Assembly: GCA_007131235.1 (NCBI GenBank)
Contig: SLQY01000110.1
Coordinates: 1-37,600 of the forward strand
DNA from: Wenzhouxiangella sp.
Lineage (GTDB): Bacteria; Pseudomonadota; Gammaproteobacteria; Xanthomonadales; Wenzhouxiangellaceae
Direction: 5' to 3'
Length of the DNA stretch: 37,600 nucleotides
Under the pieces are notes generated by a model that was given only the letters and a program-made list of their open reading frames with translations, had not been told where the DNA came from and ran no database searches. Made by a program: the position numbers and the translations under genes. Positions 333 through 20,626 of the stretch are shown piece after piece. Positions within the stretch are counted from its first letter, which is position 1; each line of letters begins with the position of its first letter.

Positions 333-3300
333 TTAGCAAAAATCCCGAGAGCCTGCTTCCAGCCGGGCCAGTCGATGGTCTTCGCTTTCGATACGTCGGG
401 CGACCAGGTGCTGGGTGCCGTTGGCATTCTGCAGAGTGCCTGCCACGCGCAGGATATGGCCGGAAAGCACGGCGCGTCGGTAGCGCTCGACCAGCTTGGG
501 CCAGACGATGACGTTGATGATGCCGGTCTCGTCTTCCAATGACAGAAAAACCACGCCGGAAGCGGTGCCGGGGCGCTGGCGATGGGTGACCAGGCCGGCG
601 GCTTCGATCCGCGTGCCGTCGGCGATGTCTTTCAGGTCGCGAGCCCGGCGCAGGCGGGGACTGAGCTGACGGCGCAGCAGTTTCAGTGGATGCTGATCCA
701 GGCTCAGGCCCAGGCTGGCATAGTCATCGAGCAGGTTGTCGGACGCGCTGGGCGGGCGGATGCTGAGGCGCGGCTCGGCGATGGCCGCAGGTGCCAACAA
801 ATCCTTCTGCGCGCGCGCCGCCATCGCTTCCCAGCGGGCCCGGTTGCGATGTCCGGCCAGCCCTTTCAGGGCTCCGGCCTCGGCCAGGGCGCGCACCTGA
901 CCCTTGTCCAGCCCGGCCCGTTCGGCCAGATCCTGCACATCACGAAAATCCCGCTCGGCACGGGCGGCGACAATGCGACCGGCAGCGGCCTCGTCGAAGC
1001 TCTTGACCATGCGCAGGCCAAGGCGGATTTTCGAGGAACAAGGATCAAGGAGCAAGGAGCAAGGTTCAGAATGCTTTCTTTCCCTTGTTCCTTGTTCCTT
1101 GTTCCTTGTTCCTTTTGTTTTTCCCGGAAACCGGAAACCGTCTTTCCCCTCCTCCAGAGAGGAGTCCCACCCACTAACCCGCACATCCACCGGCAGCACC
1201 TTGATCCCGTGCCGCTTGACGTCATTGATGATCTGGGCCGGAGCGTAGAAGCCCATCGGTTGGCTGTTGAGCAGGCCGCAGGCGAATTCGGCCGGGTGGT
1301 GACATTTCAGCCAGGCCGAAAAATAGGTCAACAGGGCGAAACTGGCGGCGTGTGATTCCGGGAAACCGTAGTCGCCAAAGCCCTGGATCTGGCTGTAGAT
1401 GCGCTCGGCAAACTCAATCGTGTAGCCGCGCGCGAGCATGCCGTCGATGAGTCTTTCGCGAAATGGCTCCAGTCCGCCGCGGCGCTTCCAGGCGGCCATG
1501 GCGCGGCGAAGCTGGTCGGCTTCGCCGGGTGTGAAACCGGCCGCGGCCATGGCGATTTGCATCACCTGCTCCTGGAAGATCGGCACGCCCAGGGTACGCT
1601 TGAGCACGCCTTCCAGGGCCGGCGAGGGGTAGCTGACTTTGTCCGGCTGCTCGCGCCGTTCCAGGTAGGGGTGAACCATGTCGCCCTGGATCGGCCCGGG
1701 CCGGACAATTGCCACCTCCACCACCAGGTCGTAAAAGCAGCGCGGCTTGAGCCGGGGCAGCATCGCCATCTGCGCCCGCGACTCGACCTGGAACACGCCG
1801 ATGGCATCGCCGCGGCAGAGCATGTCGTAGGTCGCAGGATCTTCGCGGGGAATAGAAGCAAGGTTCAAGGAGCAAGGTTCAAGGTTCAAGGAGCAAGGTT
1901 CAAGGTTCAAGGGGGAATCTGCCTCGCCCGGCCGATTTTGTGCTCCCGTACTGTCTTTCCTTGCTCCTTGTGCCTTGTTCCTTGAACCTTCATTGACATA
2001 GTCAATGGTCTTGCGAATCACGGTCAGCATCCCCAGCGCCAGACAATCCACCTTCAGCAATCCCAGCGTCTCCAGGTCGTCCTTGTCCCACTGGATGATG
2101 GTGCGATCGGCCATGGCGGCGTTTTCGACCGGGACCAGGTGGTGCAGGGGGGTATCGGAGATCACCATGCCGCCGACATGCTGTGACAGGTGGCGGGGCA
2201 GGCCGACCAGCCGGGTCGTCAGGGCCATGAGCTGGCGGGTCGCGGCGGCATTGGGGTCGAAGCCGCATTCGGCCAGGCGCTCGGGCCAGACCTCGGGCCG
2301 GTCCCACCAGGCCAGCGAGGCGGTCAGGCGATTCATCCGCTCCGGTGCCAGGCCCAGGGCGCGACCGACGTCTTTCAGTGCACTCTTGGGGCGATAGCAG
2401 ATCACGGTGGCAGCCAGGGCAGCGCGCTCGCGGCCGTACTTGTCGTAGATGTACTGCAGCACTTCTTCGCGACGCTCGTGCTCGAAGTCGACATCGATAT
2501 CGGGCGGTTCGTTGCGCTCTTTCGATATGAAGCGCTCGAACAGCAGCTGCTGCTTGGAAGGATCGACCTCGGTAACGCCCAGGCAATAGCACACCGCCGA
2601 GTTGGCCGCCGAGCCGCGGCCCTGGCAGAGGATGCCACGCGAGCGGGCAAATCTGACCACATCGTGCACGGTCAGGAAAAAGGCTTCCACGCCCATCTCC
2701 TCGATCAGCTTCAGTTCGCGGGCCACCAGGGCGCGAATCGATGCCGATGGCGAGTCGCCGTAGCGCCGATGGAGCCCTTCCATGGTCAGGCGGCGCAGGT
2801 GCTGGGCCGGAGTCAGTGGGGCAGGGGCCAGTTCGCGTGGATAGCGGTACTCAAGCCGGTCCAGGGAGAAGTCGCAGCGTTCGGCTATTGCTATCGTTTC
2901 ATCCAGCCAGCCGGGTGGGTACAGCCTGGTCAGCGTGTCGACAGGGCGCAGGTGGCGCTCGCCATTGGCGGCCAGGGCCAGTCCGCATGTGGCCAGCGGC
3001 TTGTTTTCATCCAGGGCGGTCAGCACGTCCAGCAGGGGCCGATGCGCTCGGGTTGGCATGCGGGCATCACCGCAGGCCAGGCACGGGATGTTCAGGGACT
3101 GGCCCAGTGCGTCCAGTTCCCGAAACCAGGCGCTTTCGCCGGGCTGCAGTAACCGGGTGGCACCCAGCCAGAGACGGGTGCCGAACAGGTGCTTGAGATG
3201 CCGGCCGGTGGGTCGGTGGTCCGGGGGCGATGCTTGGTGGTCAGTGGCTGGGGGTGCCGTGGTTTCCGACCACCGCCGCTCTGGCTTCCAGATCACCAGC

Positions 3301-4409: not shown

Positions 4410-7059
4410 GAGCGGAACACGGCGTCCACGCGGTGGCCGGCTGACGCCGCGCCGACGCAAGATGCTGGATCGTCTGCTTGACCAGGCCCTGGAGCAACCG
4501 GTCGAGGCCAGGGAGGATTTTGTCGCGCGCTGCGTGCAACGTGCGCCGCACCTGGGTTTCTGGTTGCAACGCCTGGTCATGGCCAGTGCCGAGCCAACCG
4601 GCTTCATAGATCACTCGGCCCGGCACCTGGCTGCCGACGCGCTGGCAGCCCGCAGTGACATATTCCCTCGCACGCTGGTACGCGGCACCCGCCTGGGCCC
4701 GTGGCGCATCATCGCGCGGATCGGGACTGGCGGCATGGGCGAGGTCTACCAGGCCGAGCGCGCCGACGGTGCCTTCGAAATGACCGTCGCGATCAAGCTG
4801 ATTCGTTCACGCAAGGAGAATCTTGCCCGTCTGCTCGAGAGCGAGCGCCAGCTCATGGCCCGCCTCAATCACGGCTCCATTGCACGTCTTATTGACGGTG
4901 GCCTGGCCGACGACGAGCGGCCTTACCTGGTGATGGAGTGGGTTGACGGACGCACGCTGGGCGAATGGGCGCAGGGTAATGACATCCCAGCCGAGCGTTT
5001 CCTGGATGTATTCGCCGAGACCTGTGAGGCAGTAGCCTTCGCCCATCGCAGCCTGGTTGTGCACGGCGATATCAAGCCAGCCAACCTGGCGGTGTCCAGG
5101 GATGGCCAGGTCAAACTGCTGGACTTTGGTGTCGCCCAGTTGCTCGATGTCGATCAGGCCGAGCTTTCGCCCAGCGCCCTGACGCCTGGTTTTGCGGCAC
5201 CGGAGCAGATCGAGCGGGGTGAAGTTTCAACCGCCAGCGATATTTACAGCCTGGGTGCGCTGCTGCACTGGATGTTGTTTGGCAAGGCCCCCAACCAGGA
5301 TCAGCCCCGCCCCGGACTGCGCACTGCCTGGCGTGAGTATCGTCGCGTATCAGACCTGCTGGCAATCGCCGACAAGGCGATGGCGACTGATCCGGAGCAG
5401 CGCTATGCCACGGTCAATGCGCTGCTTCTGGAGTTGCATCGGCTGCGTGATGGAAGGCCGGTCAAGGCGCGCAGGTTGTCGGTGGTGGATCGTACGCTGC
5501 TGTGGGTTCGTCGGCGTAAACTGGCCGCAGGACTGGGCGGGCTGGCTACCTTGGCGATTGTGGTCGGTATCAGCGTGGTGCTGTGGCAGGCCCGGATCGT
5601 GGCCCAGGAGCGCGATGTGGCGCGGCATGAGGCAGCCGTATCACTGGCGGTCAAGGACCACCTGATCCAGCTGTTTCGTGAAGCGACCAGCCTGAATCCG
5701 GATGGTGACCAGATGACCGCGCGTCAGCTGCTCGACGAAACCGCGGAGGTTGCTGCCCGGCGCTTGCATGGTGATCCGGAGGCGCGGGCGCAGGTGCAGC
5801 TGGCGATTGCAGAACTGCTGATCAGCATGGATGATTACGCGCGTGCCGATCCGCTCTTGCAGCAGATCCTGGAAGACGTGGACGAGACCTTTTCTTCCGC
5901 GCTCAGGGCCAAGTTGTACCGTAACCTGGCCCTGGTCCTGCACCGTCGAGGTGACATCGGTCGCGGTTTGCTGATGGCAGACCAGGCCGTGAACATGATC
6001 GAGCGCTTTTCCGGCGATCACCGCGAACGTCTGTCCGATGCGCTGCAGATGCGCGCCCGACTGCGCCGCGAACACGGCAACTGGGAGGGCGCGGTGATGG
6101 ACTTGCACAGGGCCCGCTTGCTGGCCCTGGCAGCCACCGAGGTAGCCAGCCCGGTGCAGGCTCGCGCCGAGGCCAACCTGGCAGCGACTTACCTGTCGCG
6201 GGGCGACTTCGAGGCTGCTGTTCGCCACATGGAAGCGGCCGATGTGCTGTGGAATGAACTGGGGCGCAAGGAGTCCCCCGACGCCCTGGTCAATCAGTAC
6301 AACCTTGCCCTGGTGCTGGACCGGCTTGGCCGCATCGATGAAGCCGAGCGACGTTTTCGGTCCAATATTGCCACGCGCGAAAACCGCCTCGGGCCGTCCG
6401 GGGCGCTGGGTGCCGCCAAGCTGCAGCTGGGCCGCTTACTGACCGTGCGCGGCGTTTTCGAGGAGGCTGAGGCGCTGATGCAAGACGCCCAGGGCATGAT
6501 GAGGCGCTTTGTCGGTGAGCAGTCTCCGGACTATGCCAGCACCTACTTTGGCCTGGGCGAACTGGCCCGTGCGCGCGGTCACTCCGATCATGCCCTTGCT
6601 CACTTTGCTGCAGCCGAGGCGGTTTTTGCAGAGGCAGCCGGGCAGCGTCATTTGCACACGCTGATGGCCAGGAGTGAGCAGCTTGGCGTGGCGGTCGAGG
6701 CGGGACGCATCGAGAGCGAGCAGCCATTCGATGAGCTGTTCGACCTGTTGGACGAGTTCGGTGCCGCCGGCAATGCCCTGCGCGCTCAACTCCACTGTGA
6801 GCGCGCTCGCTGGCGCCTGGACCAGCAGCGACACGAGCTGGCACGGAACGATGCGACGCAGTGCCACGCCCTGCGCGAGGCCATGGGTTTGGGTGGCTGG
6901 CGACTGCTGGAGGCGCATGCCCTGGCCCAATTGGCAGGGTTCAGGGCCGGCAATGAACTGGCCGGCGAACAGCTTGCATCTGTGCTTGAGCGGCTGGCGT
7001 CGCAAATGTCGCCACAGCATCAGCGGTTGCGCTGGTTGCTGGATCAGGCGGAGCGCTGA
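4399..7059 (+). CDS. Membrane Ser/Thr protein kinase with C-terminal TPR-like domain
   Basis: 886 aa; GTGGMGEVYQAE P-loop, VAIKLI, HGDIKPANLAV catalytic loop, LLDFGVAQ, AAPEQ; TM LAAGLGGLATLAIVVGISVVLW; helical repeat C-terminus; overlaps the sigma gene by 11 nt. Confidence 0.92.
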   Translation: MTPESGTRRPRGGRLTPRRRKMLDRLLDQALEQPVEAREDFVARCVQRAPHLGFWLQRLVMASAEPTGFIDHSARHLAADALAARSDIFPRTLVRGTRLGPWRIIARIGTGGMGEVYQAERADGAFEMTVAIKLIRSRKENLARLLESERQLMARLNHGSIARLIDGGLADDERPYLVMEWVDGRTLGEWAQGNDIPAERFLDVFAETCEAVAFAHRSLVVHGDIKPANLAVSRDGQVKLLDFGVAQLLDVDQAELSPSALTPGFAAPEQIERGEVSTASDIYSLGALLHWMLFGKAPNQDQPRPGLRTAWREYRRVSDLLAIADKAMATDPEQRYATVNALLLELHRLRDGRPVKARRLSVVDRTLLWVRRRKLAAGLGGLATLAIVVGISVVLWQARIVAQERDVARHEAAVSLAVKDHLIQLFREATSLNPDGDQMTARQLLDETAEVAARRLHGDPEARAQVQLAIAELLISMDDYARADPLLQQILEDVDETFSSALRAKLYRNLALVLHRRGDIGRGLLMADQAVNMIERFSGDHRERLSDALQMRARLRREHGNWEGAVMDLHRARLLALAATEVASPVQARAEANLAATYLSRGDFEAAVRHMEAADVLWNELGRKESPDALVNQYNLALVLDRLGRIDEAERRFRSNIATRENRLGPSGALGAAKLQLGRLLTVRGVFEEAEALMQDAQGMMRRFVGEQSPDYASTYFGLGELARARGHSDHALAHFAAAEAVFAEAAGQRHLHTLMARSEQLGVAVEAGRIESEQPFDELFDLLDEFGAAGNALRAQLHCERARWRLDQQRHELARNDATQCHALREAMGLGGWRLLEAHALAQLAGFRAGNELAGEQLASVLERLASQMSPQHQRLRWLLDQAER

Positions 7060-18216: not shown

Positions 18217-19583
18217 CTGAACGACTGAAGACGATCACCCCAGCGCAAGGCTGGCGTCCTGATTCCTGGCAGCAGAAACTGGCCGGTCAGCAGGCCACCT
18301 ACGATGATGAGAACGAGCTTCGGGGCGCCCTGGCACGTCTGGCCGGCATGCCACCGCTGGTCACGTCCTGGGAAATTCTTGCCCTTAAAAAGCAGATTGC
18401 AGAAGCCCAGGCAGGCAAGCGATTCTTCCTCCAGGGCGGTGACTGTGCTGAGGTGTTTGGCGAATGTCAGTCCTCGATCATCGCCAACCGGCTCAAGGTG
18501 CTGTTGCAGATGTCGTTGATTCTGCTCCACGGCCTGGAAATGCCGGTGCTGAGGGTAGGGCGTTTTGCCGGCCAGTACGCCAAGCCGCGCTCATCCGACC
18601 TGGAGACGCGCGACGGGGTCAGTCTGCCTAGCTATCGTGGCGACCTGGTCAATTCCCCTGACTTCACCGAGGCCGCGCGACGGCCGGACCCGGCTCGTCT
18701 TCTCCAGGCCCATGCCTGTTCGGCCATGACCATGAATTTTGTCCGTGCCCTGGTCGACGGCGGCTTTGCAGACCTTCACCACCCGGAATACTGGGACCTG
18801 GGCTGGGTCGAGCATTCCCCGCTGGCGGCGGAGTTTCACCGAATTTCCGACAGCATCGGCCAGTCGGTCCGCTTTGTCGAGACCATTACCGGGCAGAAGC
18901 CAGGCAGTCTCAAGCGGGTTGACTTTTTCACCTCGCACGAGGCCTTGCACTTGCACTACGAGCAGGCCCTGACTCGCCAGGTGCCGCGGCAGTGGGGTTG
19001 GTTCAACCTGGCCACGCATTTCCCGTGGATCGGCATGCGCACTGCCGAAATGGACGGGGCCCATGTCGAAATGTTCCGGGGTATTCGCAATCCCATGGGC
19101 ATCAAGGTGGGGCCGGGCATGAGTGCAAGCTGGCTCAAGGACCTCATTCGGACGCTGAATCCCGACAATGAGCCGGGTAGGCTGGTCCTGATCCACCGCA
19201 TGGGGGCCGGCAAGGTCGGCGATCACCTGCCGGGCCTGATCGAGGCGGCCAAGAGCACCGGATCACCGGTCTTGTGGATTTGCGATCCCATGCATGGCAA
19301 TACCGAAAAGGCTGCCAATGGTTACAAGACCCGTCGCTTCGCCAACATCCAGGCCGAACTGGAACAGGCCTTCGATATCCACGCAGCTTGCGGCTCGCGC
19401 CTGGGTGGTGTGCACCTCGAGCTGACTGGTGAAAACGTGACCGAATGCGTTGGTGGTGCCCGCGAACTCAACGAGGAAGACCTGGCAACCTGCTACAAGA
19501 CCACGGTCGATCCTAGGCTGAATTACGAGCAGGCGCTGGAAATGGCGATGCTGGTCGTGAGAAAACATCGCAGCCTGGCTTGA
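18213..19583 (+). CDS. Class II (plant-type) 3-deoxy-7-phosphoheptulonate synthase
   Basis: 457 codons from internal ATG; FFLQGGDCAEVF, VGRFAGQYAKPRSSD, IHRMGAGKVGDHLPGLIEA, WICDPMHGNT. Confidence 0.93.
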   Translation: MTERLKTITPAQGWRPDSWQQKLAGQQATYDDENELRGALARLAGMPPLVTSWEILALKKQIAEAQAGKRFFLQGGDCAEVFGECQSSIIANRLKVLLQMSLILLHGLEMPVLRVGRFAGQYAKPRSSDLETRDGVSLPSYRGDLVNSPDFTEAARRPDPARLLQAHACSAMTMNFVRALVDGGFADLHHPEYWDLGWVEHSPLAAEFHRISDSIGQSVRFVETITGQKPGSLKRVDFFTSHEALHLHYEQALTRQVPRQWGWFNLATHFPWIGMRTAEMDGAHVEMFRGIRNPMGIKVGPGMSASWLKDLIRTLNPDNEPGRLVLIHRMGAGKVGDHLPGLIEAAKSTGSPVLWICDPMHGNTEKAANGYKTRRFANIQAELEQAFDIHAACGSRLGGVHLELTGENVTECVGGARELNEEDLATCYKTTVDPRLNYEQALEMAMLVVRKHRSLA

Positions 19584-19648
19584 AAGAAAGGGTTCAGGGC
19601 TCAGGAACCCAGCTGTCGGACCTGAGCCCTGAACCCTGAACCCTTATT
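19584..19648. repeat. Heptad-repeat inverted element / likely bidirectional terminator between convergent genes
   Basis: GGGTTCAGGGCTCAGG (19590-19605) - 15 nt loop - CCTGAGCCCTGAACCC (19621-19636) plus extra TGAACCCTT; 16 bp perfect stem. Confidence 0.92.
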
Positions 19649-20626
19649 TCAGAGCAATGCCTCTACCGCTGCCCGCTCCTCGCGCAGTTCCTGGTCAGTG
19701 GCCTCCATGCGCGCCCGCGAGAACGCATTGATTTCCAGGCCCTGAACGATGCTGTACTTGCCGTTTTCGCAGGTGCAGGGGAAGGAGTAGATCACGCCCG
19801 GCGCAATGCCATAGCTGCCGTCGGCGGGAACGGCCATGGAGACCCAGTCGTCACCGTCGGTGCCCAGCGCCCAGTCCCGGATATGGTCAATGGCGGCCGA
19901 GGCCGCCGAGGCGGCGCTTGATGCGCCCCGAGCCTTGATGATCGCGGCGCCGCGTTGCTGTACGGTAGGAATGAAATTATCGCTGTACCAGGCCTGGTCG
20001 ACGCCTTCCATGGCTGGCTTTCCGGCAACCAGGGCATGATGCAGGTCCGGGTACTGGGTCGAGGAGTGGTTGCCCCAGATCGTCATTTTCTTGATGTGGG
20101 TGTGGTGTAGTCCGCTCCTGGCAGCCAGTTGCGCAAGCGCGCGATTGTGGTCAAGCCGGGTCATGGCGGTGAAGTTTGCGGCCGGCAGGTCGGGTGCGTT
20201 GGCCTGGGCAATCAAGGCGTTGGTGTTGGCCGGGTTACCGACCACCAGGACCTTGACATCGCGGCTGGCAACTGCGTTCAACGACTTGCCCTGGGGGCCG
20301 AAGATCTTGCCATTTTCGCTGAGCAGGTCGGCCCGTTCCATGCCCGGTCCGCGTGGCCGGGCACCGACCAGGATGGCGTAGTCGGCGTCCTTGAACCCTT
20401 CGTCCAGATCGGTGGTGGCCACAACGCCATGGAGCAGCGGGAAGGCTGCGTCGTCCAGTTCCATGACCACGCCCTTGAGGGTGTCGAGCGCGGGTGGGAT
20501 TTCCAGCAGCTGAAGAATCACCGGCTGGGTCGGACCCAGCAGATCGCCGGATGCGATGCGAAAACAGAGCTGGTAGCCGATCTGCCCTGCGGCACCGGTG
20601 ATGGCCACGCGTACGGGTTCATTCAT
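19649..20626 (-). CDS. mdh: Malate dehydrogenase
   Basis: 325 aa; [50 protein letters not shown]. Confidence 0.96.

Follow-up and report, generated by a model that had tools for sequence, protein, structure and literature searches.

An inverted heptad repeat fills the gap between the DAHP synthase and mdh genes

The window analysed here, the whole 37,600-nt stretch of DNA, comes from a Wenzhouxiangella-type MAG that, judged from Mdh, is most closely related to other Wenzhouxiangella MAGs and to W. limi. A class II DAHP synthase (DAHPS) gene, in a reading frame open from 17997, faces an mdh gene for malate dehydrogenase across a 65-bp gap at 19584–19648 (Table 1). The gap holds a perfect 17-bp inverted heptad repeat (AGGGTTCAGGGCTCAGG / CCTGAGCCCTGAACCCT) built of GGGTTCA and GGGCTCA units, with three runs of at least two G in the G-rich arm on the + strand and four such runs on the − strand. 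The initial annotation, made from the letters alone, had described the gap as an inverted 7-mer repeat with one additional TGAACCC unit, and the sequence together with an inverted-repeat search bore this out; the stem, given there as a perfect 16 bp, is indeed perfect and is one pair longer. Folding of positions 19581–19660 as RNA gave −38.5 kcal/mol, compared with −20.7 ± 3.3 kcal/mol for dinucleotide shuffles (z −5.4), and none of 200 shuffles folded as well. A scan of the window against Rfam 15 at the gathering score returned no matches.

Table 1 Coordinates of the genes and repeat features in the window
Feature	Position	Strand	Basis and remarks
Inverted heptad element in dnaE2, AAGGNNC units	1034–1113		Read in frame; absent from G018
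Inverted heptad element in dnaE2	1854–1990		Read in frame; G018 has a GGTGAAA-type array at this coding position
Class II DAHP synthase gene, 456 aa	18213–19583	+	Stop TGA 19581–19583; Pfam PF01474, E 2.8e-187; gene finder
T-rich tail TTTCTTTC, possible terminator tail	19582–19589	−	3' end of stem on the mdh strand; from sequence
G-rich arm, AGGGTTC AGGGCTC AGG	19589–19605	+	Perfect inverted repeat
Loop, 15 nt	19606–19620		Inverted repeat and RNA fold
C-rich arm, CCTGAGC CCTGAAC CCT	19621–19637	+	Perfect inverted repeat
Extra heptad unit, TGAACCC	19638–19644	+	Period-7 segment 19616–19648 and sequence
mdh, malate dehydrogenase	19649–20626	−	Stop codon 19649–19651; Pfam PF02866 / PF00056

At the threshold used, five period-7 segments were detected in the window, corresponding to three elements, two in dnaE2 and the gap copy, and none at any other period from 4 to 11. 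The gap copy had been counted as the fourth such element, a number left unconfirmed because only three pass the period-7 test. A lone CAGGGTTCAGGG at 6935 lies inside coding sequence and looks like a chance occurrence.

The gap element and the dnaE2 copies are of one kind, as had been proposed, both being inverted heptad arrays. The dnaE2 element had further been read as an insertion. However, DnaE2 of G018, a relative with a complete genome, is 71% identical and contains an inverted heptad array of another sequence, also in frame (GGTGAAAAGGTAAAAGG ... CCTTTTACC; C1, about 2582418), at the position matching window 1854–1990, which makes this a shared array site and not a one-off insertion.

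Heptad arrays are abundant in the host genome and its relatives

Genes were called using a home-made finder, and the relatives are mostly MAGs. In the host genome, 54 period-7 segments were found in 528 kb, while other periods within 4–13 gave 0–17, in a sample biased by the choice of contigs carrying matches. Within an array, identical units follow one another and variants come in blocks; the units cluster near AAGGNNC, AGGGTTC, ACGGGTT and CGGTTTG, with GGTTCAA also present, and 52 of the 54 arrays have GG at 7-nt intervals. MAG contigs C14, C55, C56, C113, C148 and C186 (G000) start or stop within heptad arrays. Such arrays seem to break MAG assembly, and their number in the host genome is therefore probably underestimated.

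In an unbiased 1.2-Mb sample of G018, period-7 arrays occupied 53 of 497 gaps, compared with 1–9 for periods 4–6 and 8–13; a signal at period 14 is a harmonic of 7. The units of G018 mostly differ from those of the host genome (AAGTGTG, AAAGGTG, AGGTGTT, ACGGGAG), and its GTGTGAA arrays break the GG-every-7 rule, which holds in the host genome and was rejected as universal. G026 is essentially array-free (0 of 151 gaps occupied, a single segment across 400 kb), yet its DAHPS is 89% identical to that of the window, compared with 81% for G018. In other families of the order (G049, G055, G058, G059), the heptads CAGGGCC, AGGGAGC and CAAGGGG were observed.

Homologous sites carry arrays of different heptads

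The flanks of ten other array sites of the host genome were searched in eight relatives; the sites were picked as well-formed, and the rates obtained apply to such sites. Many homologous gaps contain inverted heptad arrays that start right after the stop codon and use a heptad different from that of the host. At a strict threshold, arrays occupied 24 of the 49 homologous gaps from nine relatives, against the background of 53 in 497 (p = 5e-10), a count that leaves out array-free G026 (0/7) and a p value that rests on one genome, since the background is G018 alone. Within G018 only, four of seven homologous gaps were occupied (p = 0.004). A first, smaller control of site conservation (small loci, 22 gaps) was not significant (p = 0.12), and the larger G018 background was used afterwards. 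W. limi and G026 were array-free at most homologous sites.

Downstream of one gene, the heptad reads AAGGCGC, AAGGTGC, AAAAGGG, AAGGCAC, AAAGGTG or AGGTGTT across genomes, and the neighbouring protein is 80–96% identical between species showing swapped heptads. An inverted array with an apparent 9-nt unit (GCACGAAGC/G) lies past the G026 homologue of L144:1595, in a gap where relatives have heptads.

Comparison of the DAHPS/mdh gap among relatives, suggested by the initial annotation, revealed recurring inverted heptad arrays, but with other heptads, and relatives lacking the array. Where the window has AGGGTTC, G022 and G015 (DAHPS 96% identical in each) carry GGGAGAG-type and AGGTAGA-type heptads, the latter only weakly structured (z about −1 to −2); ACGGGTT is found in W. 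limi (G017), AGAGGGN-type heptads in G007, G018 and G029, and GTGAAAG arms flanking a canonical terminator in G019. G011 (DAHPS 95%) has an empty allele, a 27-bp gap without the element. Canonical terminators lie in the gap or just 3' of DAHPS in four relatives with no array here, namely G026, where the gap itself holds one, G016, G003 and G009. The gap folds strongly in G019, G029, G007, G018, G022 and G017 (z −11 to −3, mononucleotide shuffles). At the DAHPS 3' end of some relatives (L031, L032, L154), a hairpin, AGCCTGGCCTGACGGCCAGGCT, has the DAHPS stop codon in its loop; the window lacks its second arm.

The two arms change in concert and keep a fixed order

Local alignment of each arm with the complement of the other gave a median score of 24.5 within a locus, compared with 13 between orthologues (p = 7e-8) and 14 between different sites of a genome (p = 3e-6), in a test that splits gaps in half, so that some arms are misplaced and the within-locus score is weakened. 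The distance between dominant heptads was 1.29 within a locus, 2.17 at other sites of the same genome, 2.20 at the same site in other genomes, and 2.63 where neither was shared. Between species of the genus, the heptad is often swapped in both arms together, while position and pairing are kept. No description of such wholesale concerted unit replacement within one genus was found in the open-access literature searched.

The G-rich arm preceded the C-rich arm in all 44 adjacent two-arm pairs (14 in the host genome, 18 in G018, and 12 in loci of relatives, some of which may overlap in genome). Because this order is symmetric under strand, it carries no information on transcription; were one arm the product of fold-back copying, the order would mark the G-rich strand as the one that folded back.

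Arrays lie near stop codons, with partial termination plausible at the gap copy

The gap element had been proposed to act as a bidirectional terminator, with similar hairpins expected to be enriched at convergent gene ends. A census in G018 found arrays in 10 of 69 convergent, 32 of 300 codirectional and 11 of 128 divergent gaps, with no significant enrichment of the convergent class over the rest (p = 0.29); the array-bearing contigs of the host genome gave 5/30, 25/158 and 2/62, respectively. Arrays lie a median of 5 nt from the stop codon and 40 nt from the start, and 24 of the 32 in codirectional gaps of G018 are nearer the stop. At least four T in eight positions were found in 15% of outer flanks, compared with 7% in the background, and T-tracts past the C-rich arm occur at about twice the background. 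Among one-armed arrays in codirectional gaps, the G-rich strand is coding in 17 and the C-rich strand in 19, a lack of strand preference that speaks against an RNA-level role.

At the gap itself, the stem runs directly into TTTCTTTC on the mdh strand, while no T-tract directly follows it on the DAHPS strand, and a terminator pattern scan of the gap called no terminator. Given the T-rich tail, incidental and partial termination is plausible, most likely for mdh, and this part of the proposal stands. A general terminator role for heptad arrays is not supported, in view of the missing convergent enrichment, the weak T-tracts, the arrays in divergent gaps and in frame in dnaE2, the empty allele, and one relative that is essentially array-free. 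If dnaE2 is expressed, the arrays inside it cannot be efficient terminators.

Origin and maintenance of the arrays

Our best explanation, held as a whole with roughly even confidence, is that the gap copy is one member of a class of satellite-like inverted heptad repeats that occurs throughout Wenzhouxiangella and arises from slippage and fold-back template switching, with termination as an incidental effect. In this pathway, a tandem array of G-rich 7-nt units would expand via slippage, for which the block-wise make-up of the arrays provides support. The stalled G-rich strand would then fold back, and template switching would copy the array into a C-rich inverted arm, giving the fixed G-then-C order. 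Repeated correction of the hairpin would keep the arms matched while the unit drifts or is replaced, and arrays would persist mostly just past stop codons because they are tolerated, rather than selected, there. Transcripts ending at the gap copy, mostly those of mdh, would do so incidentally and in part. RNA hairpins are reported to arise and persist through template switching (PMC8794818), which is also reported to homogenise the arms of inverted repeats (PMC8604942). No mutational event was observed directly, and slippage alone is insufficient, since the heptads of one genome are alike across sites (2.17 vs 2.63 above).

The main rival, which we consider rather unlikely, is selection for a 3'-end hairpin, an RNA structure that ends, attenuates or protects transcripts after the stop codon, such that pairing matters and sequence drifts. 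Selection would fit the stop-proximal position, the concerted change of the arms, the strong folds at the DAHPS/mdh gap in six relatives and the TTTCTTTC tail. The canonical terminators that several array-free relatives have in this gap or just past DAHPS also indicate that a hairpin there may be useful, which counts against the satellite-like origin, as does the roughly twofold excess of T-tracts past the C-rich arm, and a hairpin kept at one site through many swaps could equally reflect selection. It accounts less well for the weak T-tracts, for arrays in divergent gaps and in gaps of 44–60 bp between codirectional genes, for the many one-armed arrays, and for those in frame inside dnaE2; moreover, G011 has an empty allele, and W. 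limi and G026 manage without arrays at most homologous sites.

Less probable still is an element acting as DNA, namely a cruciform, a G-quadruplex or a REP-like protein-binding site affecting supercoiling or replication, with GG every 7 nt on the G-rich strand as its signal. The prevalence of this spacing in the host genome and the absence of strand preference relative to genes would agree with such a role, as would the formation of G4 in vitro by the GGGAATC heptamers of Xanthomonas (PMC4692102), but the spacing fails in G018, the unit sequence is not conserved, and the G-rich arm of the gap copy offers only its three G runs. A mobile element with its own spreading enzyme (RAYT/REPIN-like or a reverse transcriptase) is very improbable despite the heptad vocabulary common within a genome: Y1_Tnp/RAYT (PF01797) was not found in the host genome (93.7% complete) and is patchy in the genus, the distribution of reverse transcriptase (PF00078) does not follow that of arrays, and both were rejected as drivers for want of association. 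About nine PF00078 matches within 30 kb of G018 (C1, 3792391–3820990), several with identical scores, are a local cluster of near-identical copies. The unit CAAGGAT resembles a GGA motif, which suggested CsrA sites; these were set aside, as most heptad units have no GGA.

Returning to slippage and template switching, a broader reading, which we offer tentatively and hold somewhat below even confidence, is that 3'-end hairpins throughout the genus are kept by position and shape alone, while a replication process acting on the G-rich strand only periodically rewrites the 7-nt word in both arms. The arrays would then be satellite DNA evolving in concert at dispersed conserved sites, including in frame within a polymerase gene. 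These sites provide a clear natural case in which the position and pairing of a hairpin persist while its sequence is replaced in both arms, and whether long hairpins originate and stay matched through template switching or selection can be tested directly in relatives that grow in culture, W. limi among them. They also warn that a stem conserved through 'compensatory' changes does not have to imply RNA function, and that heptad arrays seem to break short-read assemblies.

Comparison with known repeat systems

Like an intrinsic (Rho-independent) terminator, the gap element is a G+C-rich hairpin past a stop codon. Its loop is long, however, a T-rich stretch directly follows the stem on the mdh side but not on the DAHPS side, and its class occurs also in coding and divergent contexts. 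The arrays resemble REP and REPIN sequences with RAYT in being extragenic palindromes near gene ends with many copies per genome, but they have an internal period of 7, no fixed palindrome, as the unit differs by site and species, and no RAYT was found in the host genome. The TAACTGA heptamers of Beggiatoaceae are likewise abundant and intergenic, but they repeat a single fixed word directly, lie mostly upstream of start codons, and include just one inverted case (PMC4679880).

The closest known system is that of the GGGAATC heptamers of Xanthomonas, in the same bacterial order, which are also 7-nt G-rich units found genome-wide, mostly intergenic near gene ends, with about 70 G-then-C (convergent) pairs per genome and with the gene context shared between two species for 83% of repeats (PMC4692102). 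The gap copy shares the tandem G-rich 7-nt unit and the G-then-C pairing but not the word GGGAATC, and many Wenzhouxiangella units have no GGG. In Xanthomonas, as in Nostoc with its GGGGA(C/T)T counterpart, there is one heptad per genus (PMC4692102), whereas in Wenzhouxiangella the heptad varies by species and site, in both arms together. The Wenzhouxiangella arrays are of the Xanthomonas kind, with wholesale sequence turnover.
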